A stretch of 64,000 bases of DNA from Persicimonas caeni (GCF_006517175.1 NZ_CP041186.1:1054001-1118000); one strand, 5' to 3'; positions 26,402 through 44,109 are shown, numbered from the stretch's first letter. The notes: generated from the sequence alone by a model not told the origin. Numbers and translations: made by a program.

Positions 26402-29224
26402 TTATGCTTGGGGAGCTTCGTCGCGGCTGACGATCTCGACGGTATTGTGCTCGGCGTTCCAGCGCAGCCGCGGACAACTGCCGCCCTTCCCTTTGAGCAA
26501 CGCCTCGGTGACCGGCGAGTAGAGGAAATCTGAGACGAGCTGCTCGATGCTGCGCGCGTCGGACATCTCCGCGGCACGTTCGATAAGCCGGTCGCGAAGA
26601 GAGGCGTCGAGCGCGATATCGAGCCGATATTCGCTGCGCATGGCATCCATGAACGAGTCGATGCGACGCTCGAGCAGCTCGATAGCCGGAGACTCACCGG
26701 CACCGCCCAATTCTCGGAAGGTCACTGCAGCGTCGATATAATCGCGCAGACGGCCCGCCAGCGCCTTGTCTAGCGCGTCGAAGGCCTTTTCGTTGTCGAG
26801 TGTCTTTGTACCGGCGTCGTTGTCGGCAAAACCAATCTTCTTGCCACCTCGGCCAGTCTCCGCGTTTACCGTCAGGATGAAGAGAGCGTTACGCACATCG
26901 GCGCGATGGCCTCGTGTGTCGACGATGTCGCCCTCTTCAACAAGCCGCAACATCCGTTCTTGGATACGCTCGTGGGCGCAGTCGAAGTCCTCGAGCAGAA
27001 CCACGCTGCTCGGTCGACGGCGAAGCGGCGTCACGAAGAGATCTTCATCATCGTAGCCTACGTAGCCAGGCGGCGAGCCGATGAGCCGGCTCATGCTATG
27101 CGGCTCCTGGAAATCGGTCATGTCGAGACGCAACACGGCGGCCGAGTCGTTGAAAATCTCCTCGGCGAGCGCGCGCGCCAGGGTCGACTTGCCGACCCCG
27201 GGAGGTCCCACGAAGAGCAAAACAGCCATCGGGCGGTTGCGGTTGGCGTTGCGAAGCCGACTGCTGACGAGAGCGTGGGCGACCTGGGTGATCGCGAGAT
27301 CTTGGCCTACGACCGACTCCCCCAGCCTCTCCTCGATGCCTACCCACCAGTTGATTTCGCCCCGTAGCAAGCGGTCCAGCGGAATCCCCGTCTTCAGGAA
27401 GACTTGGCGAGCGACGTCATCACGCGTGACCAGCTGAGAGGACTCGGCATCCTCTTCACCGTCTTCGGCACCGACCAAATCGTTGGCGCGAGCGATACAC
27501 GCGTCCATCAGCAGCTTCTTCGATTTATCGGGCAGTCGCTGCTCGGGCAGGTATCGCACCGACAACTCGATGGCTGACTCGATAGCCGTTTCGTCGACGT
27601 CGACATCGTAATCGGCTTCCAAATCGGGGATGAGCGCCTCGAGGATCTTGGCGACGACCTCATGGGCCGGCTCCTTGATCTCGATACGCTCGAAGCGACG
27701 CTTGAGTGCCGGATCTTGCTCGATCCATCGGTGGTATTCAGCTTCGGTGGTCGCGCCGACCACGGCAATGTCGCCCGAGGCGAGCGCGCGCTTGAAGTGA
27801 TTGGGCACTTCGGCGGGGGTATTGCTACCCGAGCGCGGAGCGAAGACCGCGTGAGCCTCATCGATGAACAAAATGACGTCTTTGCTCGCCTCCTCCAGCA
27901 AACTCTTGATGCGCGATTCGAGGTCGCCGCGGTAGCTCGTCCCGCTCATCAAACTCGCGCCGTTGAGCTCCACGACGCGGTAGCCCTGCAGCTTTCGAGG
28001 CACCTGTCCGGAGGCGATGCGCTGGGCGAGGCCGACGGCCAAGGCCGTCTTACCCACGCCGGCTTCACCGGTCAGCAACGGGTTTCGCTGCTCGCGACGA
28101 AGCAGCACATTGACCACGCGCTGCAGTTCTTTTTCGCGCCCGACGATTTCGGGCAACTTCCCCTCGAGCGCTTCTTCAGTCAGGTCGCGCCCGAGCATGT
28201 CGAGGGTCGGGGTGGGCTGGCGCTTGGCGGCAAATTCGATTGCAGCTTCGACCGGAAGCGAATGCTCGAGCACCTTCGGCTCGCCGAGCGCATTGCGGAT
28301 CTCAGACTCCAGGCCCAGCGCCTGGATCAGCTCGAGGCTGGAGCCGCCGTCGTCCAGGAAGCCTTCGATCAGGTGCGTCTCGGTAATCGGGCCGTTGTTG
28401 GCCTGTTTGGCCGAGAACGACAGCATGCGGATCATGCGCGGGGTGAGCGTCTTGCGGCCCACCAAAAATTCGGGGATCGAGCTGGGCTTGCTGCCGATGA
28501 GGCGCAAGAGTTCTTCTCGAAGACGCCCCGGCTCCAGTCCACGTGCCTTGGCCGAGCGCCAGATCGTCGAATTTTTGACCGAGCAGAGCATCGCGATCAG
28601 GTGCGGGGTGCCCAAAAACGGCGTGCCGTGGGCGGCGGCGAGTTTCATCGCCCCTTGCAAAATCCGCCAGGTCGACTCGTGGAACATCGCCTCGCGCAGC
28701 AGGCCCTTTTCGTCAAAGAGTTGATCGCCTTTGCCCTCGCTCAGCCGGCGGATCGCCCAGCGCACCGACGCTGACTCGACCGCCTCGGCACGCCAGGTGA
28801 CGCTGCGTACCAGATCGAGTTCGCGCACGAGATCGCCATTTCTGGCCTGAGCCTGATGCCACGCTTCCATCAGTATACGCGTGAAACCACGCGAGAACGA
28901 CGTGCGCTCGAGCACCGGGCTCTTGTCGGAGGGGTCCTCGTCGATTTCGCGAGAAAGAAGCTGCAGGCGAGGCAGTACATCACTGTCGTCGACGACGCCG
29001 TCGGTCCCATCGGCTACCAGACCGGCCAACTCTTCATGGCCTCGCTCCAGCAGCACAATGAGCAAATCCAGCGGCAGGAACATGCGCCGGTCGACCTCGG
29101 CCAGCCACGCGCGAATCCCCTCGAGAACTTGCTGGGCCTCGGGAGAAAAGAGTTCTTGGCGCAGGCTACCCTGGTCGTCGAACAATGGATCGGTTCCGGC
29201 TGACTCCATAAGCGTGCGGTTCAC
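26402..29224 (-). CDS. Clp-type double AAA+ ATPase with three N-domain-like repeats and altered second Walker B
   Basis: The protein has about 940 aa (GTG 29224, or ATG 29209 giving 935). The first 345 residues hold three segments resembling Clp N-domain halves; the first two share the pattern DxLFDxxGxLRxxxF and the third is FLVGRKTLTPRMIRMLSFSA. AAA+ module 1 has GEAGVGKTA and ILFIDEAH. Only a short acidic linker follows it, so the ClpB coiled-coil middle domain is missing. Module 2 has GPPGVGKST and GYVGYDDEDLF, but Walker B reads VVLLEDFDCAH instead of VVLLDEIEKAH: the Asp-Glu pair is swapped. No ClpP-docking loop is obvious. It could be a substrate-remodelling ATPase of the ClpA/ClpB class with a weakened or specialised second ring. 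Confidence 0.85.
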   Translation of the reverse strand: MNRTLMESAGTDPLFDDQGSLRQELFSPEAQQVLEGIRAWLAEVDRRMFLPLDLLIVLLERGHEELAGLVADGTDGVVDDSDVLPRLQLLSREIDEDPSDKSPVLERTSFSRGFTRILMEAWHQAQARNGDLVRELDLVRSVTWRAEAVESASVRWAIRRLSEGKGDQLFDEKGLLREAMFHESTWRILQGAMKLAAAHGTPFLGTPHLIAMLCSVKNSTIWRSAKARGLEPGRLREELLRLIGSKPSSIPEFLVGRKTLTPRMIRMLSFSAKQANNGPITETHLIEGFLDDGGSSLELIQALGLESEIRNALGEPKVLEHSLPVEAAIEFAAKRQPTPTLDMLGRDLTEEALEGKLPEIVGREKELQRVVNVLLRREQRNPLLTGEAGVGKTALAVGLAQRIASGQVPRKLQGYRVVELNGASLMSGTSYRGDLESRIKSLLEEASKDVILFIDEAHAVFAPRSGSNTPAEVPNHFKRALASGDIAVVGATTEAEYHRWIEQDPALKRRFERIEIKEPAHEVVAKILEALIPDLEADYDVDVDETAIESAIELSVRYLPEQRLPDKSKKLLMDACIARANDLVGAEDGEEDAESSQLVTRDDVARQVFLKTGIPLDRLLRGEINWWVGIEERLGESVVGQDLAITQVAHALVSSRLRNANRNRPMAVLLFVGPPGVGKSTLARALAEEIFNDSAAVLRLDMTDFQEPHSMSRLIGSPPGYVGYDDEDLFVTPLRRRPSSVVLLEDFDCAHERIQERMLRLVEEGDIVDTRGHRADVRNALFILTVNAETGRGGKKIGFADNDAGTKTLDNEKAFDALDKALAGRLRDYIDAAVTFRELGGAGESPAIELLERRIDSFMDAMRSEYRLDIALDASLRDRLIERAAEMSDARSIEQLVSDFLYSPVTEALLKGKGGSCPRLRWNAEHNTVEIVSRDEAPQA

Positions 29225-29314: not shown

Positions 29315-30031
29315 TTAGCTGTGCTCCTTCTCGGCGATGACCACCAAGAAGCCGCCGAAATACTTGAGCAAGCTGTCACGCCCGACGAACTCGAGCTTTC
29401 GAAGCGCTCGGCCAACCAACGGTACTTTGTGAGCCGCGGCCGCAGGCGTGAAGATCCGAATGCCCGAGTAATCGAGCACCTTCAAATTCTCGGGCATGCG
29501 CCGACTCAGGTCGATGGCGTGGTCCCAACGCGTGTAGATGGCGCTCTCATCGGTCTTTTTCGAGATTTTGCCCGGCCCGGCAGCGCGCTTGGCCAGATAG
29601 CGCAGGCTGTAGGGGTTGTAGAACTCGAGCAGCAAATGGCCGCCGCGACGGGTCACCCGCGCCATCTCACGCAGGGCGCGATCGATATCTTTGATGTGGG
29701 CGAGCACCTTGAAGCTGTAGACGACGTCGAAACTCTCATCGGCGAACGGCAAGTCGGTCACCGAGCCCTGGGCTACGTCGAGCCCACGAGCCACGGCCTG
29801 GTGCAGCATGCCTTTGCTGATATCGATGCCCACGGCGCGCTTGGCCCGCTGAGCGACCCGATCGAGGATCAACCCGGTGCCGCAGCCGACCTCGAGCACA
29901 TCTTTGCCGCCCACGTAATCGGCGAGCAGGTCGACTTCGAGGTCGTCGATCATAGCGTGGTAGCCGCGGTCTCGCCCACGCTCGTACCATTCGGCAAATT
30001 CGTCGTAATAATCGCGGTTGGCTTTCTTCAT
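29315..30031 (-). CDS. Class I SAM-dependent methyltransferase
   Basis: About 238 aa from the ATG at 30031. Motif I VLEVGCGTGL, the acidic end of beta-2 (VGIDISKGML), VTDLPFADESFDVVYSF (motif II/IV) and the post-motif LREMARVTRRGGHLLLEFYNP match the Methyltransf_11/UbiE-like group. It is soluble and cytoplasmic. The substrate cannot be inferred. An earlier in-frame ATG at 30067 is possible; neither has a clear ribosome binding site. It is divergent from the truncated kinase fragment that starts near 30186. Confidence 0.85.
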   Translation of the reverse strand: MKKANRDYYDEFAEWYERGRDRGYHAMIDDLEVDLLADYVGGKDVLEVGCGTGLILDRVAQRAKRAVGIDISKGMLHQAVARGLDVAQGSVTDLPFADESFDVVYSFKVLAHIKDIDRALREMARVTRRGGHLLLEFYNPYSLRYLAKRAAGPGKISKKTDESAIYTRWDHAIDLSRRMPENLKVLDYSGIRIFTPAAAAHKVPLVGRALRKLEFVGRDSLLKYFGGFLVVIAEKEHS

Positions 30032-30185
30032 TATGTGGAAGTCTCGAGGTCTTGGAGTCTGAGGCATCGAAACGGCTGTCGGCACGTGCCTGTCGAATCG
30101 CCGTTCGAGATGATAACGTGAGCGGTTGTACCAGATACCTGACACTGCAGGCAATTTGCGCTAATCTACGCGTTGTCAGGCCATT

Positions 30186-30353
30186 TTGAGAACCAGTCAA
30201 CCCATCAATTTTGGAGTCGAGTGCATTGGTCGCACAGAGCGCCTCGCCCAACCCGAAGATTTTGGCAAATATCAATTGGTCGCCCGGCTGGCCCACGGCC
30301 GCATGGGGGGACTTCTACAGGCCAAGGTGCAGGAGGTAGAGGGGCCCGAGTAG
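30186..30353 (+). pseudogene. 5' fragment of a Ser/Thr kinase gene, cut by the left duplicated arm
   Basis: From a TTG at 30186 the frame reads 55 codons and includes DFGKYQLVARLAHGRMGG, the glycine-loop start of a Hanks-type kinase, then QAKVQEVEGPE. The similarity breaks at 30344, exactly where sequence identical to the inverted arm begins, and a stop follows at 30351. No invariant Lys, HRD or DFG remains. It is distinct from the kinase in the arms (different residues around the glycine loop). The rest of this gene is not in the window. The start codon is uncertain. Confidence 0.7.
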
Positions 30354-32316
30354 GTTGCCGCTGCGTCGCACTTTTGGGCGACCAAATCACGCAACGCTTG
30401 AAGGTGATTGCCGCTCCACACCACTTCGCCGATAAACTCGCCGGGGTTGTGGCCTTGGCGCTTCAAGTAGGCGCGCGGCAGGAAGTTACCGGTGGTCGAG
30501 TTGCGGTCTGTGAAACAAAAGGTTTTTGCCCTCCAGGTCGGCCAACGAGCTTGACTTGGGAGTCCATGCGGGTTAGCAAGAGGGCGTCGCTCGACGTCGA
30601 GCCGCCGAACTGGCGAATGGCGAGCAGGCGGATCTTGGGCTCCGCTTTCTTGGTCTGCACGTACAGCAGGGGAGGCAAGATGGCGATGTCGTAGTCGCCG
30701 TTACGCACCCCCTTGGACAACTCCTCATAGCTGCTCGTGACTTCCATCGGCACCGGACGCCCGAGCTCTTTCTCCATATACGCTTGGATGGGCTGAATCT
30801 CCTTTTCGAGCACATCGGGCGTCGCGATCGGAGCCCAGCCGACGCGGATGGGATCGCCGATGAGAATGGGAGACGCCTTTTCCTCACCGAGCAGCTTTTG
30901 GCCCAGCTCACTTCCCTTGATTTGAGGCCAGAAGAAGAAAGCTGCGGCGATGACGCTTGCCACGGTCACGCCGGCGATCAACGCCAGCGTCTTGCCGTTC
31001 GAGTCATCAGCGGCGCGACCGCCGATGTTCGGCGGCGGGGCTCCCATATCGATGCTCTGCTCATCCATCGTCGCGGTCGTCCGCAGATCGGACTGGGCGC
31101 TTGGATGAGAGCCGGACTGCGAGTGGGAGTCTCCTGCGTCGAACGCCCGCACCCCGGAGGGGAGGCTGCCGCTTCCCGACGGCGAGCGGCGCAACTCGGG
31201 GAATGAACCACTGTCAGCAGGACGATCGACGACCGTGGCGATATGATCTTGGCCCTGTCGCTGGGAGCCGCTGACTGCCGAGCGCGAGTCCGAGCCCGTC
31301 ACGTGAATCAGGTTGCGCTTTTCGTTCGAGGTCAGGGAGCGCTCCAGGGCGTCGTGCATCGTCGCCTGACGCTCGGCCAACTCCTCGCCGGCGATCTTTT
31401 CGAGAAACTCCGCCAGAACGTCTTCGCCGAACGCAAGCCCGCTGGCACGTGCGGCTTGGATAAGCGCACGGCGCATCTGCTCGGCGGTCTGATAGCGTTG
31501 GTCGCGATCTTTGACCAAGGCCTTGAGCACCACGCGATCGACCACATCGGGCACCGCGGGATTGTAGGTGCTCGGAGGCTCGGGTTGCTCTTGGACGACC
31601 GCCCGCATCATGTCGAGATCTTTTTCGCGCTTGAAGAGGCGACGATCGGTCAGCGCCTCCCACAGCACGATGCCGAGTGCAAAGATGTCCGCTCGCCGGT
31701 CGAGCTTCAGCCCCTTGCACTGTTCGGGAGACATGTAGGCGAATTTGCCTTTGAGGTGACCGGAGTGAGTCGCCTCGACGCCCTGGGATGCCTTGGCCAC
31801 GCCAAAGTCGAGTACTTTGACGAATCCTTCGGTGGTGCACATCAGGTTGTGCGGGGAGACGTCTCGGTGAATGAGCTCGAGGGGGCTGCCCTCCAAGTCA
31901 CGAAGCTCGTGGGCAGCGTGCAGGCCTCGACAAGCTTGGTCGACGACTGACAGAGCCACCTGCACCGGCAGGGAGGTGCCGTCGCGCTCGGCGAGCACCT
32001 GCATTTCACGCACCGTGCTGCCGTGGATATACTCCATGGCAATATAGTAGTCGCCATTCTCTTCGCCGAGCTCGAAGATTTGGACGACATTGGGGTGGTT
32101 GAGTCTGGCGATGATCCTTGCTTCCCGAAGGAACATGTCGATAAAGGAAGGATCGTCGGCCAGATGAGGCAGGATGCGCTTGATGACGACGAGGCGCTCC
32201 AGGCCGGCAAGGCCACGCTCGCGGGCAAGAAACAGCTCGGCCATGCCCCCGGTGGCCAGTTTGGTCACCAGTTCGTACTTGCCAAGCATCACGGGAGCTG
32301 TATTCGTGTCAGACAC
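30344..32316 (-). pseudogene. Truncated, frameshifted copy of the Ser/Thr kinase-PhnD fusion
   Basis: Identical to the intact gene at 41809-44109 for its first 587 codons (kinase domain, membrane helix and half of the binding domain). Two extra T (30551-30552 and 30523-30527) then shift the frame within the PhnD-like domain, and a stop falls at 30463. Even without them the copy lacks the last 110 codons because the arm ends at 30344. If expressed, it would give an intact kinase and membrane segment with a broken sensor. Confidence 0.9.
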
Positions 32317-32431
32317 GCACGCCTCGGTGTCGTTCGCGGCTCCAGAGCAGTCGAGTTGCAGAGAGTCTCATGGCCATCGTAGTCGGAATTGGCTCGTTCG
32401 CAAAGTATCCTCATGTTACAACGGAATCGCT

Positions 32432-32688
32432 ATGAAAGGATTTCATCGATCGTGGTGTTGAGTCTCGCTGTGAGCCTGAGTCTGGGCGCACTTGCGGGGT
32501 GCAAAGCCGAAGAATGTCGCCAGATGTCTCGCTGTTGCGAGGCGATCAAAGATGAGGAAGGAGTCGGCAGCGCCTGCGGCGAGATTGCTCAAGGCGTCAA
32601 AGACCCGGATACCTGCCGCACCATCCTGCGTACGGTCGAGGCGATGTACGAAGATCGCGAAGAAGATCTGCCGAAGGCGTGCCAGTAG
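32432..32688 (+). pseudogene. Frameshifted copy of the 85-aa Cys-rich lipoprotein gene
   Basis: Loss of one A in the run after the ATG (32435-32437, AAA instead of AAAA) turns the start MKRISS into MKGFHRSW and leaves the rest of the gene without its start. The body of the frame is identical to the intact copy at 41436-41693. Confidence 0.88.
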
Positions 32689-32744
32689 GTTGGGCGCACC
32701 TCTTTTGTCGTCTTGTTTTTTGTCGTCTTGGAAGTGAGTCAACG

Positions 32745-33680
32745 ATGTCTCAGGACGCCCTCAAAGCCGTCGACGTGCTCCAAGAAGTGTTGGCCGCGCA
32801 GCCTTGGCAGCCAACCGAAGATCCCGCTGTCGAGGGGCGCGGGCTGCGTGTGCGCGTGCACCTCGACGATCAGCGATCAGCATTGCTGTACGTGTGGGAC
32901 GAAGCACTGCTCGCCAAGCGGGCGGCGTGGGCTCATCGCCCCGAGCGTGCGGGGATGCTCTTTGCGGTGCCGGAGCTGATCGAATCCGGTCTAAAGTGGT
33001 GTCTCGTCGACGACGTCGACGGCATGCCGCTGACGACTTATCTCGAAAGGGAAGGGGTGGGTTCGGTGACCGAACTCGACGCGGAGCGAGCTCGGGGGTT
33101 GGCGCGTGAAGCTGGCGAGCTCGCGCGGAAGCTCCACGAGATCGAGGTTCCGCGCGAGTATGGCGACATGGTCGATCCCGATCGAGACGGCCATATTGGC
33201 CGCTGGAACACTTTCAACGGCTATATCGCTCACCGCCTCGAGCATTTCGCCGAGCAAATTCGCCATCGCGACCTCGACGAAGAGGTTCGGAGCCAGCTTC
33301 TGGCAACGATAGGAGACCTACGCGCGGAGCTTGCGGCATTTCACCCGCGCCACGCGCCCAGCCTCAACCACGGTGCCTTCGGCCCGCAGCACTTTTGGGT
33401 CGACGAGACAGGCCGTACGATCACCGCACTGACCGGATTCGACGGAGCGCGACTCCTCCCCCCCGAGGCCGATCTCGCCCGCCTGTTGTGGCTCGACGGC
33501 CTGGCTTGTGATGATGGATTGGTGCGCTCGTTCTACGCCGGATACGGTGCCGCCCGCACGATGGATCTGCAGCGCCGCGAGCGCTTCTACCGGCGCGTTG
33601 CCGCGCTCGAGGCGCTCGTCGAGTCGACGGGTCGGCGTAACTTGACGGACGCCGAGTTGGTGGCTCTCTCCTCGCCCTGA
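32745..33680 (+). CDS. Aminoglycoside-phosphotransferase-fold pseudokinase, copy 1 (left arm)
   Basis: This 311-aa frame is identical to the right-arm copy at 40444-41379 and is the only complete gene in the left arm without a frameshift. See that entry for domain content. The start ATG 32745 lies about 5 bp after a GGAAGTGAG stretch. Two copies of TTTGTCGTCTTG (about 32704-32730) sit directly upstream. If the left arm is real the cell has two identical copies in opposite orientation. Confidence 0.85.
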   Translation: MSQDALKAVDVLQEVLAAQPWQPTEDPAVEGRGLRVRVHLDDQRSALLYVWDEALLAKRAAWAHRPERAGMLFAVPELIESGLKWCLVDDVDGMPLTTYLEREGVGSVTELDAERARGLAREAGELARKLHEIEVPREYGDMVDPDRDGHIGRWNTFNGYIAHRLEHFAEQIRHRDLDEEVRSQLLATIGDLRAELAAFHPRHAPSLNHGAFGPQHFWVDETGRTITALTGFDGARLLPPEADLARLLWLDGLACDDGLVRSFYAGYGAARTMDLQRRERFYRRVAALEALVESTGRRNLTDAELVALSSP

Positions 33681-33683
33681 TGC

Positions 33684-35344
33684 TCAATCGGAAAACTTAC
33701 AGGTTCCTGGTCCACTTGCCTTCGTGATGCCATCGGCCGCGATGTGGAGGAGTACTTGCCCTCCCTTCGGGTGGTGGAGGCGAAGATGGTTGGTCCTCGG
33801 GTCATACGTCGCCGTTGCTGGTTCGTTGTAGTTGGTGTGCAACTCGAGCGCGCAGCGCGCGCGCCGTATCCTTCGGGGCACCTCGTCGTCAGCGTTCGAA
33901 TAGAGCGTGGACGATGGTCGCTGGCCCGGGGGTGCTCGACCGAGTCACGGTAAACCAAGTGTTGGGTGTGTTCGCACGCGCGAAGACTACTGGATCGTTC
34001 TCATTGACGGGGCGCAGGCGCTGCAGCTTTCCGGGATCCGATGCATCCGCGACTGCCACTTGCTCATCGTGGAACGGGAGAGCGAAGACGAGTCCTTTTT
34101 CAAGGCCCACCACGGCGGTGCGTGCGTGGTAGGATCGAGGTGCCGGGCGAATCTCCTCCCTGTCGATGCACGCCAAGACCTCAACCTTGACGGGCCACGG
34201 TCTGCACCACGGTCTTTCCGGGCGCTCTCCCACGGATCTCCTCGAGGTGGGCCGAGTTGTCGCAGCCCTAAAAGATACGCATCTCGGTTGAGGGCGTGCA
34301 TTGACTCGTTTCCGAGCAGCAAACCGTCCTACGGTGCCTCGGGCTCGGTAGTCGACGCCGCCGGATGGCGTGCTCGTATCGAAGAGGTGCAGATAGGTCT
34401 CGTCGGCGTCTGACGTGTAGGGATCGCTCGCCCAGGCCGCCAGCAGGGAGCTTCCCCACGACACTAGCTTCCAATTTCCTCCCAGAAATCCCTGCCTGGA
34501 GGTACTTCGCCCCGTGCGCAGGTCGATTGCATTCAGGATCAGCAGACTGGCATGTTTGACGCGGAGGGGCGCAGTGGATGGGCCGGGAAGGGCGATATCC
34601 TTGCAGCCGAGACGTTCGTGCTGCAGCTTGCCGCTACGTCGCGATTGGAGCACAGGAAGGGTCAACTGGCGATACTCATCGGCATTCTCACCCCAGTACG
34701 TGTCGAGCCACGCCTTGCGACGCTCGGCGCGCTGCTCGTAAGTCAGTCTCTTCTCTTTCTCGGTCGACAGCTTTCGTTTCTCATTGGCCGAGAGCTTTCG
34801 AAGTCGACCCTCAATCGGGGTGCTCGATGCGAACAGGAGGTGCCCGTCGCGCACATCGGCCCACGTTATGCGGCCCGGAGTCTCGACATGCGCGACCTGC
34901 CGAGCGTGGGTAGGAGACTCGAGTCGCAACAGATCGATACGGGAGCGAAAGGTCTGCCACCAGGGCCGCCCTGGCTTGTAGGACGTACGCTCGACATTCA
35001 CGAGCACCAGGTAATGGTGATCGCGGGTGAACGAACCCAACCAAGAGCCGACGAGCGAGTACGGCGCCGTCCAGATGCTGACTTTGTCGGTTTGCTGCGC
35101 TCCCGTCTCTTCTGACTCGAGAACAATGCTCGAACCGTCAATGCCGTAGGGTCGGTCGGCGACGACAGTTTGGGATACACCTGCGAACGGCCACAGTGCG
35201 ATGCTCGAGCTCTTCTCTGCGGATGTCGGCGGTTGCCAGGCGTCGTCCCGGCGGGGAGCGAGAAATGGGGCCGCCATCTGGGTGTCGGTGTGCCGGAGAA
35301 TGAGGAGTTGCCCCCGACTCGGACGGTAGGGCCCGCTCAGCATT
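33684..35344 (-). pseudogene. 5'-truncated, multiply frameshifted copy of the 633-aa lipoprotein gene
   Basis: The copy starts inside the native gene, at the codons for MLSGPYRPSRG, and so lacks the signal peptide and lipobox. Three one-base insertions (34328, 34229, 34183) shift the frame and restore it 50 codons later with one extra residue. A fourth (33909) shifts it again and stops it at 33889, about 70 codons early. The intact parent is at 38539-40440. Confidence 0.9.
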
Positions 35345-36886
35345 GTTAACGACCGAGCCGAGTGCACCGTCGACGACGATTGCCCCTCGGGGCCGTACGT
35401 GTGCGTCGATCAGGTGTGCAAGCGTGAAGGCTTCGACGCAGGCGACATCGGCAACGACTCCGGCGACCAAGATACTGGCGTGCCTGAGGACACCTTTGAC
35501 GACGCCTCCGACGACGAGGGGCCCCCGAGCGTCGAGAGTGTCACGCCTGCAGCCGGCGCCACCGACGTCGCGACGGATACCACCATCGAGATCGTCTTCA
35601 GCGAGCCGATGGATCCCTTCACCATCAACTTCTACTCGATCGTGCTGCGCGACACGAATAACCGCGAAGTGGACATCACGGTCACCTACGACGCGGACGC
35701 ACAAACCGCGACCGTGACGCCCCAGATCAATCTGCAGCCGGCTGCTTCCTATCGACTGCGGGTCGAGTCCCTCGCCCGAGACATGGCGGGCAACGGCCTG
35801 GACCCCGACTTCGAGGCGACCTTCTATACCGCCTACGACGAGCCGGCCGAGCATACGACCCTGGCGGAGACGTTCGCGCCGGTCATCTACCAGGGCATCG
35901 CCGATTCCCAGGACAGCGGACCCAACGGCGATATCCCGACGCTGCTCGACTTCGACGACAACCTGTCGGCGGCCGACAACGGCGCCAACTCGCGCCGAAG
36001 CGGCACCACGACCGAGGCCCACGTCTATTATCACGTGACCGAGTCGGCTCAGTACTACTTCCTGCACTACATCCTGTACTACCCGTCTCGACTCGACGTC
36101 GACGATCAGTCGCGCGCCGAGCACGATTTCGCCGGTGCGGTCTTCGTGGTCGACAAGTCCGACAACAGCCTGCTGTTGGTCGAAGGAGTCAGCTTGCTCG
36201 ACTCCGGCGAGGTCACCTCGGCCTACAAGCCCGACGGCAGCCCCGTGTCGCTCCCCGGCGGCAATATCGGCAACATGACGCTGGCCAGCTTCGGCGCCGA
36301 CAAGCTCGAAGACGGCACCCACTACCCGATGTACGTGCCCGGTGGCGTCCACGAGACGTGCAATTGGCATAAATCGGGCAGCAACTCGCGTTGTCTGCAC
36401 AACCCGGGGCAGTTCCGCGGCACCGACGGCGGTGGCGTGGTGATGCGTCACGGCGACACCGCCCAGAGCTACGACGAGGCCACCGAAAACCAGGATTCGG
36501 GTCACCTGGAAATGACCTACAAGCTGGTTCCGCTGGCTTCGACCGTCTGGGCTTATCGCGGCAGCTACGGCAGCGGAGGGCTCTTCGAGATTCCGTTCAT
36601 CTACGAGCCCACGGGCACCGATCGCCCCATCGGCTTCAATCCGCAGGACGCCCACGTGTTGCCGCGGCGACTGCAGAGCGGCGCCACCGAAAACTTCGGC
36701 CGCACGCCCTTTTTCTGGCTGCCGAGCCCCGGCGAAGACAATCACGGTCAGTGGCTCATGGACCCGGTGTACATCTTGCCCAACCGGTATAACTTCGGAG
36801 AGTCGGTCACGACCGAGTACTGCTACAACTTCTTTTTCGACATCGATAACCGCTCCAGCTCCATCGAGGGCTGCGGTGGCAACTAA
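35345..36886 (+). pseudogene. Secreted Ig-like (Big_5-type) protein lacking its 5' end
   Basis: The frame is open from the inner end of the left arm (35345) for about 513 codons, but no start or signal peptide remains; a GTG at 35399 lies inside the domain. The visible start is Cys-rich (ECTVDDDCPSGPYVCVDQVCK), followed by an acidic linker and one SbsA/Big_5 Ig-like domain (SVTPAAGATDVATDTTIEIVF to about ARDMAGNGL). The remaining 370 residues are beta-rich with HVYYHVTESAQYYFLHYILYYPSR and AEHDFAGAVFVV, faintly like the DUF946/Vps62 group; I would not assign it. The missing N-terminus should be a lipoprotein or Sec signal. The last 11 bp overlap the next gene. The core is intact, so loss came from the junction. 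Confidence 0.75.
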
Positions 36887-37277
36887 GCTGAGCCAATTCA
36901 TGTTCGATCGACGCCCCACAACGTTCGTCAGCGCGCTGTTCGCCGCGGCGCTCTTCGTGTTCGCCGGCTGCGCTTCGGAGCCGAAGCCCAAGCCCCAGAA
37001 GGTCGAAAAGGCACCGGCGCAAAAGAAGAAGGCCGTCCAAGTCAAAGAGCCCACGCCCGAGGAGTTGGCAAATAGCCCGTGCGGCAATCCTGACTGGGCC
37101 CAACTTCCTCCCGGCGCCGAGGACAAGGCGCCCTCGAAGGAAGCCCAACCGGCCGAAGAAGGCGCCGAGCCGGCAGATACGCCCCCGTCCGACGCGCAGC
37201 CTGCCGAAGAGGCTACCGGGGAAGGCGAACAGTCGAGCAAGGTCGAGCTGTACCCCAAAGATCAGCCCTGCACCTGA
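36876..37277 (+). CDS. Predicted lipoprotein, Pro/Glu/Ala-rich
   Basis: The 133-aa protein starts at GTG 36876, overlapping the previous stop, or at ATG 36900. It has a signal peptide with lipobox VFAGC (about residue 32), then a Lys/Pro/Gln-rich stretch, a short segment with one of its two remaining Cys (NSPCGNPDW), an Ala/Glu/Pro-rich low-complexity tail and a final CT with the other Cys. No fold or family is recognised. The stop is 4 bp before the moeA ATG, so the two are translationally close, although no functional link is evident. Confidence 0.7.
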   Translation: MATKLSQFMFDRRPTTFVSALFAAALFVFAGCASEPKPKPQKVEKAPAQKKKAVQVKEPTPEELANSPCGNPDWAQLPPGAEDKAPSKEAQPAEEGAEPADTPPSDAQPAEEATGEGEQSSKVELYPKDQPCT

Positions 37278-37281
37278 CAAC

Positions 37282-38523
37282 ATGAAACGATTTATCACCG
37301 TCGAAGAGGCGCGCCAGCAGATCCTGGAGCGCCTTCCTCGTTTGTCCACCGAGCGCATTTTCCTCTCGCAGGCGCTCGGGCGCATCCTCGCCGAGTCCGT
37401 CGAGGCGCCGACCGACTCTCCACGCTTCGATAACTCGGCGCGCGATGGCTACGCGCTGCGCTTCGACGATCTCGAAGGAGACCGCCCTACTCTGTCGGTC
37501 ATCGGCACCGCCGCAGCCGGCACGATCAGCGATCTGCACGTCGAGCCGGGTACGGCCGCGCGCATCATGACTGGCGCTGTGGTCCCCGAAGGCGCCGACA
37601 CCATCGTGATGCAGGAGTATTGCGAGGTCGACGAGGACGCCGGCACCGTCACTGTGCTCGAGGTTCCCGAAAAGGGTCGGGGCGCATGGGTGCGCAAGGC
37701 CGGCGAGAATATGGCCGCAGGCGAAGCCGTGCTCGAGCCGGGCGCTCGCCTCGGCGCCCCCGAGGTGGGTCTGCTGGCGAGCTTCGGTCGCTCGGTCATC
37801 GAGGTCTCGCGCCGCCCCCGCGTCGCTATCGTGAGCACCGGCGATGAATTGGTCGAACTCGACCAAGAGCCTCAACCGGGCCAGATCATTAACAGCAACG
37901 CCTATATGCTCGAAGCCCTCGTTCACCAAGCAGGTGGTGAGGCGGTGGTCCTGCCACCGGCTGCCGACACTGAGGAGGCCGTGCGTGACACCTTCGAGCA
38001 AGCGTTGCAGTCGGCCGACATCGTGGTGAGCAGCGGCGGCGTGTCGGTCGGCGACTTCGACATCACCCGCGAAGTGGTCGACGAGCTGACCGGCGGCATG
38101 AACTTCTGGAAGATTCGCATGAAGCCGGGCAAGCCGCTCGCCTTCGGCACCGCCGACACCGACGGGCGAGATGTCCCGCTCATCGGCCTTCCGGGCAACC
38201 CGAACTCCTGCTTTGTCTGCTTCCACCAATTCGTGCGGCCGGCGCTGGCGGTCATGCAGGGCGTCGCCCGCGACGGCGTCGTCCCGAGGCGCCTCGACGC
38301 GATTCTAGCTGGCCCCGTGCAGACCACGCCCAAACGCCGTGTCTACCTGAGCGGCACATTGCGCGGCCGTGTGGGCGACAAACCGGAGTTTGTGCCCTTC
38401 GACAACCAAAACTCGGGCAACTTACGCCTCTTCTGTGGGGCGGAGGCGTTCGGCGTTTGCGAAGAAGGTGTGGCGAGGATGGAGGCCGGGGATGAGATCG
38501 CCGTCGAGTTGATTGAACTCTAG
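37282..38523 (+). CDS. moeA: MoeA, molybdopterin molybdenumtransferase
   Basis: The 413-aa enzyme inserts molybdate into adenylylated molybdopterin to give the molybdenum cofactor. Family blocks in order: FDNSARDGYAL, GTAAAG, RIMTGAVVPEGADTIV, RKAGENMAAGE, VAIVSTGDEL, INSNAYML, SSGGVSVGDFD, MKPGKPLAFG, GLPGNPNSCFV, and a C-terminal domain IV (SGTLRGR to the end). The length matches MoeA (about 410). No other molybdenum cofactor gene is in the window. It lies in the unique core between the two inverted arms, so it would be inverted by recombination between them. Confidence 0.95.
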   Translation: MKRFITVEEARQQILERLPRLSTERIFLSQALGRILAESVEAPTDSPRFDNSARDGYALRFDDLEGDRPTLSVIGTAAAGTISDLHVEPGTAARIMTGAVVPEGADTIVMQEYCEVDEDAGTVTVLEVPEKGRGAWVRKAGENMAAGEAVLEPGARLGAPEVGLLASFGRSVIEVSRRPRVAIVSTGDELVELDQEPQPGQIINSNAYMLEALVHQAGGEAVVLPPAADTEEAVRDTFEQALQSADIVVSSGGVSVGDFDITREVVDELTGGMNFWKIRMKPGKPLAFGTADTDGRDVPLIGLPGNPNSCFVCFHQFVRPALAVMQGVARDGVVPRRLDAILAGPVQTTPKRRVYLSGTLRGRVGDKPEFVPFDNQNSGNLRLFCGAEAFGVCEEGVARMEAGDEIAVELIEL

Positions 38524-38538
38524 TCAGACGGAATTGGG

Positions 38539-40440
38539 ATGATCGCTGGACGTCGAATGCCGAATCCGCTGCGTGACGTCGCTCTTTTCGTCGTGCTCGC
38601 GGCGCTTTCGACCGCTTGCGGCAATTCGCAGTCGTATCGTTCGTCCCCGCCCCTACCACCGATTGAAGTCTCGACACCATCGCTTTCGGCAGAGCAACGC
38701 GCAGCGTCGCAAGCCATGGCGCTGCGGCGAGCTCGGGGCTGCGACGATGTGGCCCGGGCACTCGCCAATATCGACGCCGAACAAATGCTGAGCGGGCCCT
38801 ACCGTCCGAGTCGGGGGCAACTCCTCATTCTCCGGCACACCGACACCCAGATGGCGGCCCCATTTCTCGCTCCCCGCCGGGACGACGCCTGGCAACCGCC
38901 GACATCCGCAGAGAAGAGCTCGAGCATCGCACTGTGGCCGTTCGCAGGTGTATCCCAAACTGTCGTCGCCGACCGACCCTACGGCATTGACGGTTCGAGC
39001 ATTGTTCTCGAGTCAGAAGAGACGGGAGCGCAGCAAACCGACAAAGTCAGCATCTGGACGGCGCCGTACTCGCTCGTCGGCTCTTGGTTGGGTTCGTTCA
39101 CCCGCGATCACCATTACCTGGTGCTCGTGAATGTCGAGCGTACGTCCTACAAGCCAGGGCGGCCCTGGTGGCAGACCTTTCGCTCCCGTATCGATCTGTT
39201 GCGACTCGAGTCTCCTACCCACGCTCGGCAGGTCGCGCATGTCGAGACTCCGGGCCGCATAACGTGGGCCGATGTGCGCGACGGGCACCTCCTGTTCGCA
39301 TCGAGCACCCCGATTGAGGGTCGACTTCGAAAGCTCTCGGCCAATGAGAAACGAAAGCTGTCGACCGAGAAAGAGAAGAGACTGACTTACGAGCAGCGCG
39401 CCGAGCGTCGCAAGGCGTGGCTCGACACGTACTGGGGTGAGAATGCCGATGAGTATCGCCAGTTGACCCTTCCTGTGCTCCAATCGCGACGTAGCGGCAA
39501 GCTGCAGCACGAACGTCTCGGCTGCAAGGATATCGCCCTTCCCGGCCCATCCACTGCGCCCCTCCGCGTCAAACATGCCAGTCTGCTGATCCTGAATGCA
39601 ATCGACCTGCGCACGGGGCGAAGTACCTCCAGGCAGGGATTTCTGGGAGGAAATTGGAAGCTAGTGTCGTGGGGAAGCTCCCTGCTGGCGGCCTGGGCGA
39701 GCGATCCCTACACGTCAGACGCCGACGAGACCTATCTGCACCTCTTCGATACGAGCACGCCATCCGGCGGCGTCGACTACCGAGCCCGAGGCACCGTAGA
39801 CGGTTTGCTGCTCGGAAACGAGTCAATGCACGCCCTCAACCGAGATGCGTATCTTTTAGGGCTGCGACAACTCGGCCCACCTCGAGGAGATCCGTGGAGA
39901 GCGCCCGGAAAGACCGTGGTGCAGACCGTGGCCCGTCAAGGTGAGGTCTTGGCGTGCATCGACAGGGAGGAGATTCGCCCGGCACCTCGATCCTACCACG
40001 CACGCACCGCCGTGGTGGGCCTTGAAAAAGGACTCGTCTTCGCTCTCCCGTTCCACGATGAGCAAGTGGCAGTCGCGGATGCATCGGATCCCGGAAAGCT
40101 GCAGCGCCTGCGCCCCGTCAATGAGAACGATCCAGTAGTCTTCGCGCGTGCGAACACACCCAACACTTGGTTTACCGTGACTCGGTCGAGCACCCCCGGG
40201 CCAGCGACCATCGTCACGCTCTATTCGAACGCTGACGACGAGGTGCCCCGAAGGATACGGCGCGCGCGCTGCGCGCTCGAGTTGCACACCAACTACAACG
40301 AACCAGCAACGGCGACGTATGACCCGAGGACCAACCATCTTCGCCTCCACCACCCGAAGGGAGGGCAAGTACTCCTCCACATCGCGGCCGATGGCATCAC
40401 GAAGGCAAGTGGACCAGGAACCTGTAAGTTTTCCGATTGA
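38539..40440 (+). CDS. Lipoprotein of 633 aa, beta-rich, family unknown
   Basis: The start is ATG 38539 or ATG 38557 (MPNPLRDVALFVVLAALSTAC), either giving a lipobox STAC. The mature protein is beta-rich with repeated hydrophobic strands separated by polar turns (GQLLILRH, DGHLLFASST, LVSWGSSLLAAWASD, YLHLFDTSTP, GLVFALPFHDEQVAVAD), suggestive of a propeller similar to the secreted Beta_propel group. A basic helical insertion (about residues 270-310, Lys/Arg/Glu-rich) interrupts it. It starts 16 bp after moeA. Its first 82 codons are outside the duplicated arm and the rest inside, showing that the right arm is the native copy. It ends 3 bp from the convergent pseudokinase gene. Confidence 0.75.
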   Translation: MIAGRRMPNPLRDVALFVVLAALSTACGNSQSYRSSPPLPPIEVSTPSLSAEQRAASQAMALRRARGCDDVARALANIDAEQMLSGPYRPSRGQLLILRHTDTQMAAPFLAPRRDDAWQPPTSAEKSSSIALWPFAGVSQTVVADRPYGIDGSSIVLESEETGAQQTDKVSIWTAPYSLVGSWLGSFTRDHHYLVLVNVERTSYKPGRPWWQTFRSRIDLLRLESPTHARQVAHVETPGRITWADVRDGHLLFASSTPIEGRLRKLSANEKRKLSTEKEKRLTYEQRAERRKAWLDTYWGENADEYRQLTLPVLQSRRSGKLQHERLGCKDIALPGPSTAPLRVKHASLLILNAIDLRTGRSTSRQGFLGGNWKLVSWGSSLLAAWASDPYTSDADETYLHLFDTSTPSGGVDYRARGTVDGLLLGNESMHALNRDAYLLGLRQLGPPRGDPWRAPGKTVVQTVARQGEVLACIDREEIRPAPRSYHARTAVVGLEKGLVFALPFHDEQVAVADASDPGKLQRLRPVNENDPVVFARANTPNTWFTVTRSSTPGPATIVTLYSNADDEVPRRIRRARCALELHTNYNEPATATYDPRTNHLRLHHPKGGQVLLHIAADGITKASGPGTCKFSD

Positions 40441-40443
40441 GCA

Positions 40444-41379
40444 TCAGGGCGAGGAGAGAGCCACCAACTCGGCGTCCGTCAAGTTACGCCGACCCGTCGA
40501 CTCGACGAGCGCCTCGAGCGCGGCAACGCGCCGGTAGAAGCGCTCGCGGCGCTGCAGATCCATCGTGCGGGCGGCACCGTATCCGGCGTAGAACGAGCGC
40601 ACCAATCCATCATCACAAGCCAGGCCGTCGAGCCACAACAGGCGGGCGAGATCGGCCTCGGGGGGGAGGAGTCGCGCTCCGTCGAATCCGGTCAGTGCGG
40701 TGATCGTACGGCCTGTCTCGTCGACCCAAAAGTGCTGCGGGCCGAAGGCACCGTGGTTGAGGCTGGGCGCGTGGCGCGGGTGAAATGCCGCAAGCTCCGC
40801 GCGTAGGTCTCCTATCGTTGCCAGAAGCTGGCTCCGAACCTCTTCGTCGAGGTCGCGATGGCGAATTTGCTCGGCGAAATGCTCGAGGCGGTGAGCGATA
40901 TAGCCGTTGAAAGTGTTCCAGCGGCCAATATGGCCGTCTCGATCGGGATCGACCATGTCGCCATACTCGCGCGGAACCTCGATCTCGTGGAGCTTCCGCG
41001 CGAGCTCGCCAGCTTCACGCGCCAACCCCCGAGCTCGCTCCGCGTCGAGTTCGGTCACCGAACCCACCCCTTCCCTTTCGAGATAAGTCGTCAGCGGCAT
41101 GCCGTCGACGTCGTCGACGAGACACCACTTTAGACCGGATTCGATCAGCTCCGGCACCGCAAAGAGCATCCCCGCACGCTCGGGGCGATGAGCCCACGCC
41201 GCCCGCTTGGCGAGCAGTGCTTCGTCCCACACGTACAGCAATGCTGATCGCTGATCGTCGAGGTGCACGCGCACACGCAGCCCGCGCCCCTCGACAGCGG
41301 GATCTTCGGTTGGCTGCCAAGGCTGCGCGGCCAACACTTCTTGGAGCACGTCGACGGCTTTGAGGGCGTCCTGAGACAT
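40444..41379 (-). CDS. Aminoglycoside-phosphotransferase-fold pseudokinase, copy 2 (right arm)
   Basis: The 311-aa protein has the C-lobe pattern of APH/choline-kinase-like enzymes: AREAGELARKLHEIEVPREYGDM, then LNHGAFGPQHFWVDETGRTITALTGFDGA and PPEADLARLLWLDG. Against the usual LxHGDxxxxNxxVD...IDFD the catalytic Asp is Ala211, the Asn is His and the metal-binding Asp is Gly, so all three catalytic positions are lost. The N-lobe (residues 1-110) has Lys58 near the position of the ATP lysine but the pattern is weak. It is probably a binding or scaffold protein. It is 56 bp downstream of the small lipoprotein gene and probably cotranscribed with it. Confidence 0.75.
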   Translation of the reverse strand: MSQDALKAVDVLQEVLAAQPWQPTEDPAVEGRGLRVRVHLDDQRSALLYVWDEALLAKRAAWAHRPERAGMLFAVPELIESGLKWCLVDDVDGMPLTTYLEREGVGSVTELDAERARGLAREAGELARKLHEIEVPREYGDMVDPDRDGHIGRWNTFNGYIAHRLEHFAEQIRHRDLDEEVRSQLLATIGDLRAELAAFHPRHAPSLNHGAFGPQHFWVDETGRTITALTGFDGARLLPPEADLARLLWLDGLACDDGLVRSFYAGYGAARTMDLQRRERFYRRVAALEALVESTGRRNLTDAELVALSSP

Positions 41380-41435
41380 CGTTGACTCACTTCCAAGACG
41401 ACAAAAAACAAGACGACAAAAGAGGTGCGCCCAAC

Positions 41436-41693
41436 CTACTGGCACGCCTTCGGCAGATCTTCTTCGCGATCTTCGTACATCGCCTCGACCGTACGCAGGA
41501 TGGTGCGGCAGGTATCCGGGTCTTTGACGCCTTGAGCAATCTCGCCGCAGGCGCTGCCGACTCCTTCCTCATCTTTGATCGCCTCGCAACAGCGAGACAT
41601 CTGGCGACATTCTTCGGCTTTGCACCCCGCAAGTGCGCCCAGACTCAGGCTCACAGCGAGACTCAACACCACGATCGATGAAATCCTTTTCAT
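41436..41693 (-). CDS. Small Cys-rich lipoprotein
   Basis: The 85-aa precursor MKRISSIVVLSLAVSLSLGA ends in lipobox LAGC (Cys24). The mature 62 residues have six further Cys (EEC, RCC, SAC, DTC, KAC) and an even mix of charged residues, so a disulfide-bonded, exported helical domain is likely. No family is recognised. It is divergent from the kinase-PhnD gene across 115 bp and upstream of the pseudokinase gene, so coregulation with the kinase is possible. Confidence 0.78.
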   Translation of the reverse strand: MKRISSIVVLSLAVSLSLGALAGCKAEECRQMSRCCEAIKDEEGVGSACGEIAQGVKDPDTCRTILRTVEAMYEDREEDLPKACQ

Positions 41694-41808
41694 AGCGATT
41701 CCGTTGTAACATGAGGATACTTTGCGAACGAGCCAATTCCGACTACGATGGCCATGAGACTCTCTGCAACTCGACTGCTCTGGAGCCGCGAACGACACCG
41801 AGGCGTGC

Positions 41809-44109
41809 GTGTCTGACACGAATACAGCTCCCGTGATGCTTGGCAAGTACGAACTGGTGACCAAACTGGCCACCGGGGGCATGGCCGAGCTGTTTCTTGC
41901 CCGCGAGCGTGGCCTTGCCGGCCTGGAGCGCCTCGTCGTCATCAAGCGCATCCTGCCTCATCTGGCCGACGATCCTTCCTTTATCGACATGTTCCTTCGG
42001 GAAGCAAGGATCATCGCCAGACTCAACCACCCCAATGTCGTCCAAATCTTCGAGCTCGGCGAAGAGAATGGCGACTACTATATTGCCATGGAGTATATCC
42101 ACGGCAGCACGGTGCGTGAAATGCAGGTGCTCGCCGAGCGCGACGGCACCTCCCTGCCGGTGCAGGTGGCTCTGTCAGTCGTCGACCAAGCTTGTCGAGG
42201 CCTGCACGCTGCCCACGAGCTTCGTGACTTGGAGGGCAGCCCCCTCGAGCTCATTCACCGAGACGTCTCCCCGCACAACCTGATGTGCACCACCGAAGGA
42301 TTCGTCAAAGTACTCGACTTTGGCGTGGCCAAGGCATCCCAGGGCGTCGAGGCGACTCACTCCGGTCACCTCAAAGGCAAATTCGCCTACATGTCTCCCG
42401 AACAGTGCAAGGGGCTGAAGCTCGACCGGCGAGCGGACATCTTTGCACTCGGCATCGTGCTGTGGGAGGCGCTGACCGATCGTCGCCTCTTCAAGCGCGA
42501 AAAAGATCTCGACATGATGCGGGCGGTCGTCCAAGAGCAACCCGAGCCTCCGAGCACCTACAATCCCGCGGTGCCCGATGTGGTCGATCGCGTGGTGCTC
42601 AAGGCCTTGGTCAAAGATCGCGACCAACGCTATCAGACCGCCGAGCAGATGCGCCGTGCGCTTATCCAAGCCGCACGTGCCAGCGGGCTTGCGTTCGGCG
42701 AAGACGTTCTGGCGGAGTTTCTCGAAAAGATCGCCGGCGAGGAGTTGGCCGAGCGTCAGGCGACGATGCACGACGCCCTGGAGCGCTCCCTGACCTCGAA
42801 CGAAAAGCGCAACCTGATTCACGTGACGGGCTCGGACTCGCGCTCGGCAGTCAGCGGCTCCCAGCGACAGGGCCAAGATCATATCGCCACGGTCGTCGAT
42901 CGTCCTGCTGACAGTGGTTCATTCCCCGAGTTGCGCCGCTCGCCGTCGGGAAGCGGCAGCCTCCCCTCCGGGGTGCGGGCGTTCGACGCAGGAGACTCCC
43001 ACTCGCAGTCCGGCTCTCATCCAAGCGCCCAGTCCGATCTGCGGACGACCGCGACGATGGATGAGCAGAGCATCGATATGGGAGCCCCGCCGCCGAACAT
43101 CGGCGGTCGCGCCGCTGATGACTCGAACGGCAAGACGCTGGCGTTGATCGCCGGCGTGACCGTGGCAAGCGTCATCGCCGCAGCTTTCTTCTTCTGGCCT
43201 CAAATCAAGGGAAGTGAGCTGGGCCAAAAGCTGCTCGGTGAGGAAAAGGCGTCTCCCATTCTCATCGGCGATCCCATCCGCGTCGGCTGGGCTCCGATCG
43301 CGACGCCCGATGTGCTCGAAAAGGAGATTCAGCCCATCCAAGCGTATATGGAGAAAGAGCTCGGGCGTCCGGTGCCGATGGAAGTCACGAGCAGCTATGA
43401 GGAGTTGTCCAAGGGGGTGCGTAACGGCGACTACGACATCGCCATCTTGCCTCCCCTGCTGTACGTGCAGACCAAGAAAGCGGAGCCCAAGATCCGCCTG
43501 CTCGCCATTCGCCAGTTCGGCGGCTCGACGTCGAGCGACGCCCTCTTGCTAACCCGCATGGACTCCCAAGTCAGCTCGTTGGCCGACCTGGAGGGCAAAA
43601 CCTTTTGTTTCACAGACCGCAACTCGACCACCGGTAACTTCCTGCCGCGCGCCTACTTGAAGCGCCAAGGCCACAACCCCGGCGAGTTTATCGGCGAAGT
43701 GGTGTGGAGCGGCAATCACCTTCAAGCGTTGCGTGATTTGGTCGCCCAAAAGTGCGACGCAGCGGCAACCTACTCGGGCTCGTTTCTGACCGCAGGAAAA
43801 TTCGGCGTCCCGGTCGGAAAGATCCGCCAACTCGCGATCACGGGCCACGTGCCCCAAGATTCGGTGGTCGCAGCCCCGGACACCCCTGACTCCGTCGCCA
43901 AGGATCTGGAGCGTGTGCTGCTCGACTTCGATCCCAAAGAGGACGCCGGGGTCGAAACCGTCGGGGAAATCCTGCAGATCACCGGCTTTTCGGACGGCTC
44001 CGACGAGGCGTTCGATGATCTACGCGATGCGGTGGAAAATAACGACGAGCTGCCCGAACGTCTGGCGCCCAAGGAAGACGGCGCTCAAGCCGAAAAGGGT
44101 AAAGACTAA
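41809..44109 (+). CDS. Receptor-like Ser/Thr kinase fused to a PhnD-like periplasmic binding domain
   Basis: The 766-aa protein starts at GTG 41809. Residues 10-280 are a complete Hanks-type kinase: glycine loop ATGGMAE, VVIK (Lys46), HRDVSPHN (His150, Asp152), DFG (Asp170) and MSPEQ. Residues 290-440 are a polar Ser/Arg/Gly-rich juxtamembrane stretch. A single helix lies at 444-464. Residues 485-740 match the phosphonate/phosphite-binding PhnD family: RVGWAPIATPDVLEKEIQPI, LGRPVPM, NGDYDIAILPPLLY, SLADLEGKTFCFTDRNSTTGN and VVWSGNHLQAL. The likely topology is a cytoplasmic kinase with an extracytoplasmic oxyanion or small-ligand sensor. All catalytic residues are present. Its stop is 3 bp from the convergent HD-GYP gene. 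Confidence 0.9.
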   Translation: MSDTNTAPVMLGKYELVTKLATGGMAELFLARERGLAGLERLVVIKRILPHLADDPSFIDMFLREARIIARLNHPNVVQIFELGEENGDYYIAMEYIHGSTVREMQVLAERDGTSLPVQVALSVVDQACRGLHAAHELRDLEGSPLELIHRDVSPHNLMCTTEGFVKVLDFGVAKASQGVEATHSGHLKGKFAYMSPEQCKGLKLDRRADIFALGIVLWEALTDRRLFKREKDLDMMRAVVQEQPEPPSTYNPAVPDVVDRVVLKALVKDRDQRYQTAEQMRRALIQAARASGLAFGEDVLAEFLEKIAGEELAERQATMHDALERSLTSNEKRNLIHVTGSDSRSAVSGSQRQGQDHIATVVDRPADSGSFPELRRSPSGSGSLPSGVRAFDAGDSHSQSGSHPSAQSDLRTTATMDEQSIDMGAPPPNIGGRAADDSNGKTLALIAGVTVASVIAAAFFFWPQIKGSELGQKLLGEEKASPILIGDPIRVGWAPIATPDVLEKEIQPIQAYMEKELGRPVPMEVTSSYEELSKGVRNGDYDIAILPPLLYVQTKKAEPKIRLLAIRQFGGSTSSDALLLTRMDSQVSSLADLEGKTFCFTDRNSTTGNFLPRAYLKRQGHNPGEFIGEVVWSGNHLQALRDLVAQKCDAAATYSGSFLTAGKFGVPVGKIRQLAITGHVPQDSVVAAPDTPDSVAKDLERVLLDFDPKEDAGVETVGEILQITGFSDGSDEAFDDLRDAVENNDELPERLAPKEDGAQAEKGKD

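Follow-up and report, generated by a model that had tools for sequence, protein, structure and literature searches.

The 5-kb inverted repeat in the deposited chromosome of Persicimonas caeni YN101 is present in the file, but the organism itself most likely lacks it. Its left arm stands where relatives have a conserved interval of matching length, and the poor consensus is one-sided, falling on that arm. From these sequence features we consider the left arm very probably an assembly artefact, in which a gap of about 5 kb was misfilled with inverted long-read sequence. The errors in the copy, read together with the fact that two other genes occupy exactly this place in all close relatives, point to an assembly mistake that most likely hides those genes. 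A sequence-only reading of the same DNA had described the inverted repeat correctly, and had missed the left-only indels, the position of the left flank within a second kinase gene and the loss of about 5 kb of native sequence. Its proposal of a real duplication that could turn the core around finds no support here: a conserved kinase-lolCE interval of similar length has been replaced, PacBio-like indels are in excess on the left and lacking on the right and in the rest of the window, and an assembly error fits these features better.

The inverted match and its source

The window is the whole 64-kb stretch of DNA that was analysed (G000:C1:1054001-1118000); the assembly it comes from, G000, is a single contig of 8,047,206 bp. 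Self-BLAST returned one sole long inverted match, 30344-35347 against 43779-38780, with 99.84% identity over 5,006 columns, no mismatches and eight gap positions; the probability of a chance origin for a 5-kb inverted match is nil. Trimmed to 35344 and 38784, the arms differ by seven one-base indels and by no substitution. The arm coordinates of the sequence-only reading were thus confirmed: in the deposited sequence 30344-35344 (5,001 bp) is the reverse complement of 38784-43779. In the contig the arms lie at C1:1084344 and C1:1097779, separated by a core of about 3.44 kb of unique sequence. A search of 1.66 Mb of the assembly for other close-set inverted matches of at least 150 bp and at least 95% identity found none, and an assembly-wide habit of local inverted duplications was rejected on this ground. 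The features of the region are as follows.

26402-29224, minus strand: ClpB/ClpA-like AAA ATPase (Pfam AAA_2/AAA), left flank of the conserved block and the same neighbour in relatives
29315-30154, minus strand: methyltransferase (Pfam Methyltransf_11), conserved left neighbour of STK2
30165-30343, plus strand: stub of STK2, a Ser/Thr kinase-TPR gene, recognised by homology to STK2 of relative G018
30344-35344, minus strand: left arm, which repeats 38784-43779 in inverse orientation but for seven one-base indels
35345-36886, plus strand: secreted Big_5-domain protein without its 5' end (Pfam Big_5)
36876-37277, plus strand: small lipoprotein in the core, whose homologues in relatives follow the secreted gene and precede moeA
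37282-38523, plus strand: putative moeA in the core, an open reading frame conserved at the relatives' loci, named after the earlier reading
38539-40440, plus strand: lipoprotein of 633 aa (open reading frame), an intact frame that spans the right arm's inner end
38784-43779, plus strand: right arm, native and source of the copy, with intact reading frames over both ends and conserved gene content
40444-41445, minus strand: APH-family phosphotransferase within the right arm (Pfam APH)
41809-44109, plus strand: Ser/Thr kinase fused to a PhnD-like domain (Pfam Pkinase, Phosphonate-bd), crossing the outer end intact

Both ends of the right arm lie inside intact reading frames (38539-40440 and 41809-44109), and relatives share the block to which it belongs, consisting of moeA, the APH-family gene, a small lipoprotein gene, the kinase/PhnD gene and an FHA-GAF-HD gene. 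The proposal that the right arm is the source therefore stands, on the frames spanning its ends and on the gene order kept in relatives. For the 38539-40440 lipoprotein there is a weak Pfam match to Beta_propel (E 1.3e-4), just below its cut-off. The block formed by the APH, small lipoprotein and kinase/PhnD genes is inverted in place, between moeA and the FHA-HD gene, in one group of relatives (L026, L029, L031, L032, L033, L034, L037 and L038), an orientation opposite to that in the window (40444-44109) and in G004, G005, G006 and G008.

The left arm is joined on either side by an inversion-type junction that shares 0-3 bp of homology. Neither junction shows an unusual foldback, and junction secondary structure as a fragile site was rejected, the folding being ordinary. 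Within the arms lie genes for a lipoprotein, an APH-family enzyme, a small protein and the kinase-PhnD fusion, and no transposase; in agreement with the sequence-only reading, the sequence at their ends holds neither insertion sequences nor terminal repeats nor target duplications, and an insertion sequence or composite transposon was rejected as the origin. The geometry of 5-kb opposed arms around a 3.4-kb core would fit a functional invertible switch, in which the arms recombine and the core flips together with moeA. We find this hardly credible: the arms hold ordinary genes, with no recombinase and no conserved ends, the arrangement is absent from the relatives examined, whose left site in no case holds a further copy, and the existence of the left arm is itself doubtful. 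No paper on this locus was found in the literature, and a contig search for other strains returned distant kinases only, in a scan from which the genome itself was apparently excluded.

The conserved interval at the left site

In relatives the genes follow the order clp, methyltransferase, STK2, lolCE, secreted protein, lipoprotein and moeA. Eight of them carry, at the site corresponding to the left arm, STK2, then a lipoprotein-releasing lolC/E permease gene and then the 5' part of the secreted gene, and the methyltransferase gene adjoins STK2 in G003, G004, G005, G006, G008, G009, G010, G011, G013, G016, G018 and G019. STK2 of G018 encodes 1,087 aa with kinase and TPR regions; the best NCBIfam match of the permease is TIGR02212 lolCE, at 317 bits, under the cut-off of 362. 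In G008 (Bradymonas; L025/L109, L110) the row is split, with clp, methyltransferase, STK2 and lolCE at 3.56 Mb and the secreted protein, lipoprotein, moeA and kinase genes at 0.61 Mb; here the first half of the row has moved elsewhere and STK2-lolCE is intact.

In the window both flanks of the left arm are broken genes. The left flank ends inside STK2, of which about 52 codons are kept: the frame GRTERLAQPEDFGKYQLVARLAHGRMG closely resembles the STK2 N-terminus of relatives, with 64% identity to residues 12-58 of the G018 protein, and runs into a stop a few codons beyond the junction. On the other side the core starts within the secreted Big_5-domain gene, whose 5' end of about 25-30 codons, including the signal peptide, is gone; that this protein is truncated had been recognised before, and full-length homologues in relatives indeed begin upstream. 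A simple insertion into an intact gene was rejected, since the joined flanks are a kinase N-terminus and a secreted protein and not one gene.

What lies between these break points in relatives is missing from the assembly, as would be expected of an artefact. The STK2 body does not occur elsewhere in G000, nor does the lolCE orthologue anywhere in it, and a translocation of the missing genes was rejected accordingly. The orthologue is present at full or nearly full length, with 42-98% identity, in 22 of the 23 other genomes searched. Relatives that have it also carry a second paralogue elsewhere, about 40-45% identical; this second paralogue is the only lolC/E gene in G000 (7371648-7373237, 40% identity). 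From the STK2 break point to that in the secreted gene the eight relatives measure 4,507-5,375 bp, and the left arm, at 5,001 bp, fits the gap so expected, although this length is taken from relatives and not from the true YN101 sequence, and the fit could be luck. The nearly equal length and the absence of the conserved interval together indicate that the left arm has replaced that interval with inverted sequence.

Such a replacement could also be biological. In a microhomology-mediated template-switch deletion with inverted duplication, two inversion-type junctions of low homology are formed and sequence is deleted at the acceptor site. In a real and very recent rearrangement of this kind, during replication or break repair, the growing strand would have left its template at 30343, joined the opposite strand at 43779, copied it leftwards to 38784 and returned to 35345, deleting about 5 kb (the STK2 body, lolCE and the secreted 5' end) and leaving the inverted neighbouring 5 kb in its place. 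The inversion-type junctions with 0-3 bp of microhomology are typical of such events, and the second lolC/E paralogue might partly compensate for the loss. Moreover, the APH-kinase/PhnD block is inverted in place in some relatives, from which it follows that rearrangement at this locus occurs over long timescales. Large inverted duplications are also known in prokaryotes, as in Halobacterium plasmids (PMC10264941). Nevertheless, we judge a template switch unlikely, because it would mean losing a gene that 22 of 23 relatives retain and because a replacement as long as the deleted sequence is not expected of it. A genuine length-conserving replacement of about 5 kb, comprising a kinase-TPR gene and one lolC/E gene of the two, seems quite improbable; it would rob a living Gram-negative predator of a lipoprotein-export permease that is nearly universal, and the core could then flip.

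One-sided indels in the left arm

Relative to the right arm, the left copy has six extra bases and one missing base, at 30527, 30552, ~32437, 33910, 34184, 34231 and 34329. All seven indels disrupt the left copy, and the right copy keeps its frame at each of them. In the right arm the kinase-PhnD gene matches the G008 protein without interruption over residues 38-732, whereas in the left arm the match breaks at 664/672; the indel at ~32437 moves the small lipoprotein's start codon into another frame. In the shifted segment of the 38539 gene, GC at the three codon positions is 0.75/0.50/0.58 on the right versus 0.57/0.73/0.53 on the left, so that the expected pattern is present on the right and absent on the left; for the four indels in this gene, to which the relatives offer no homologue, the evidence is weaker and comes from codon composition and open-frame length. 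If either arm were equally error-prone, the probability that all seven indels fall on the left would be below 1%.

Four of the seven indels double a single base, as raw PacBio errors do; true replication slippage would instead be expected in runs of at least four bases, of which the arm has 46. Three dispersed repeats of this assembly, with copies at widely separated positions (2,410, 1,636 and 1,704 bp), served as a control; their copies show 0, 0 and 1 gaps and no mismatches. These repeats, at C1:1478717-1481126/4314715-4317124, 1360310-1361945/4259025-4260660 and 1002116-1003818/4043831-4045534, are 1.6-2.4 kb long and probably insertion sequences. The remainder of the 64-kb window is tiled throughout with long intact reading frames, and the consensus quality of the left arm is below that of its surroundings, as an artefact would have it. 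Reads would polish two real arms equally, yet the indels are one-sided, which indicates that the left arm rests on little data. A template switch should leave arms equal apart from ordinary mutations; instead there are seven one-sided indels and no substitutions, and errors that are confined to one copy, mostly of single bases and unaccompanied by substitutions, are unlike biological decay.

The drop in sequence quality seems to begin already in the last ~39 bp before the left junction (30305-30343). There the STK2 stub is apparently corrupted and reads GGLLQAKVQEVEG versus GDVYKAKSHGVEG in relatives; a comparison of N-termini showed nine of them to agree on GDVYKAKSHGVEG or a near variant. 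The stub departs from the N-terminus, otherwise nearly invariant, precisely where a run of six G occurs, and the next frame gives GDFYR, as if compensating indels preceded the junction.

A low-quality arm would also result from a mixed culture or a minority structural variant, if the assembler had taken the reads of a few rearranged cells. This would account for a low consensus quality that is restricted to the left arm, and it accords with the native gene order being conserved in relatives. However, the sequence needs nothing beyond a chimeric read, the match in length is again left unexplained, and we hold this explanation to be very improbable.

A misfilled gap as the probable origin, and its consequences

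The YN101 genome, GCA_007993775.1, is listed at 8,047,206 bp (PMC11509652) and was assembled from Illumina and PacBio data with Celera Assembler 8.0, SOAPdenovo and GapCloser (PMC7460792), whereas another report gives 8,047,306 bp, 144x coverage and an Illumina-only methods text (PMC7188933). The two chromosome lengths are thus 100 bp apart, and PMC7460792 and PMC7188933 give different sequencing methods.

The exact software error at the left site of YN101 is our reconstruction. Two contigs may have ended near 30343 and 35345, with a gap of known size, about 5 kb, between them. A gap-filling or joining step would then have put in about 5 kb of a poorly corrected PacBio read in the wrong orientation or from its wrong end. 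The source might be the far end of a reversed read of about 13.4 kb spanning 30344-43779, since taking 5 kb from the wrong end of such a read gives exactly the inverted 38784-43779. Alternatively, it could be the overhang of a palindromic read in which a SMRTbell adapter was missed, cut to the size of the gap. A pure palindromic read alone was rejected, as it leaves no 3.4-kb unique core. Counted against the artefact is the reported coverage of 144x (PMC7188933), at which no gap in coverage would be expected.

Comparable are gaps wrongly filled, or contigs wrongly scaffolded, in finished bacterial genomes, which place wrong sequence of the expected length between correct flanks; the YN101 pipeline did include GapCloser (PMC7460792), the faulty step being one we infer. 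Similarly, palindromic or chimeric PacBio artefacts, caused by missed SMRTbell adapters or whole-genome amplification, produce nearby inverted copies with read-type errors (PMC6218980). Palindromic reads made up at most ~0.5% of an unamplified control, partly through missed adapters (PMC6218980). These artefacts are immediate palindromes, whereas the arms in the window lie a 3.4-kb core apart, so that an extra step such as cutting to gap size would be needed. Of the biological counterparts, a template-switch deletion is alike in its junctions and its deletion, but would give arms of equal quality. The Halobacterium plasmids pNRC100 and pHcu190 share the long opposed arms around unique DNA; there, however, the duplication is found in more than one strain and restriction analyses back the NRC-1 plasmids (PMC10264941), while the one in the window is confined to a single assembly and stands in place of conserved genes.

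The true chromosome most likely carries, in this order, the methyltransferase gene, STK2, lolCE, the secreted protein, lipoprotein and moeA genes and a single-copy right arm, and nothing inverts. The assembly that represents the genus would then probably lack a kinase gene as well as one of the two lolC/E genes, and probably bears a false second copy of four other genes. As it stands, GCA_007993775.1 would mislead gene counts, duplication scans and essential-gene surveys at G000 1084306-1089344. The combination of one-sided divergence by indels only with a displaced conserved interval of equal length offers a test usable on other local inverted duplications that look suspicious.

At the outer end of the native right arm, the kinase-PhnD fusion is conserved across the group, in the window and in the relatives L025, L026, L027, L028, L029, L030 and L031, beside the FHA-GAF-HD gene and moeA, and a kinase with its own solute-binding sensor (41809-44109) could merit a look.
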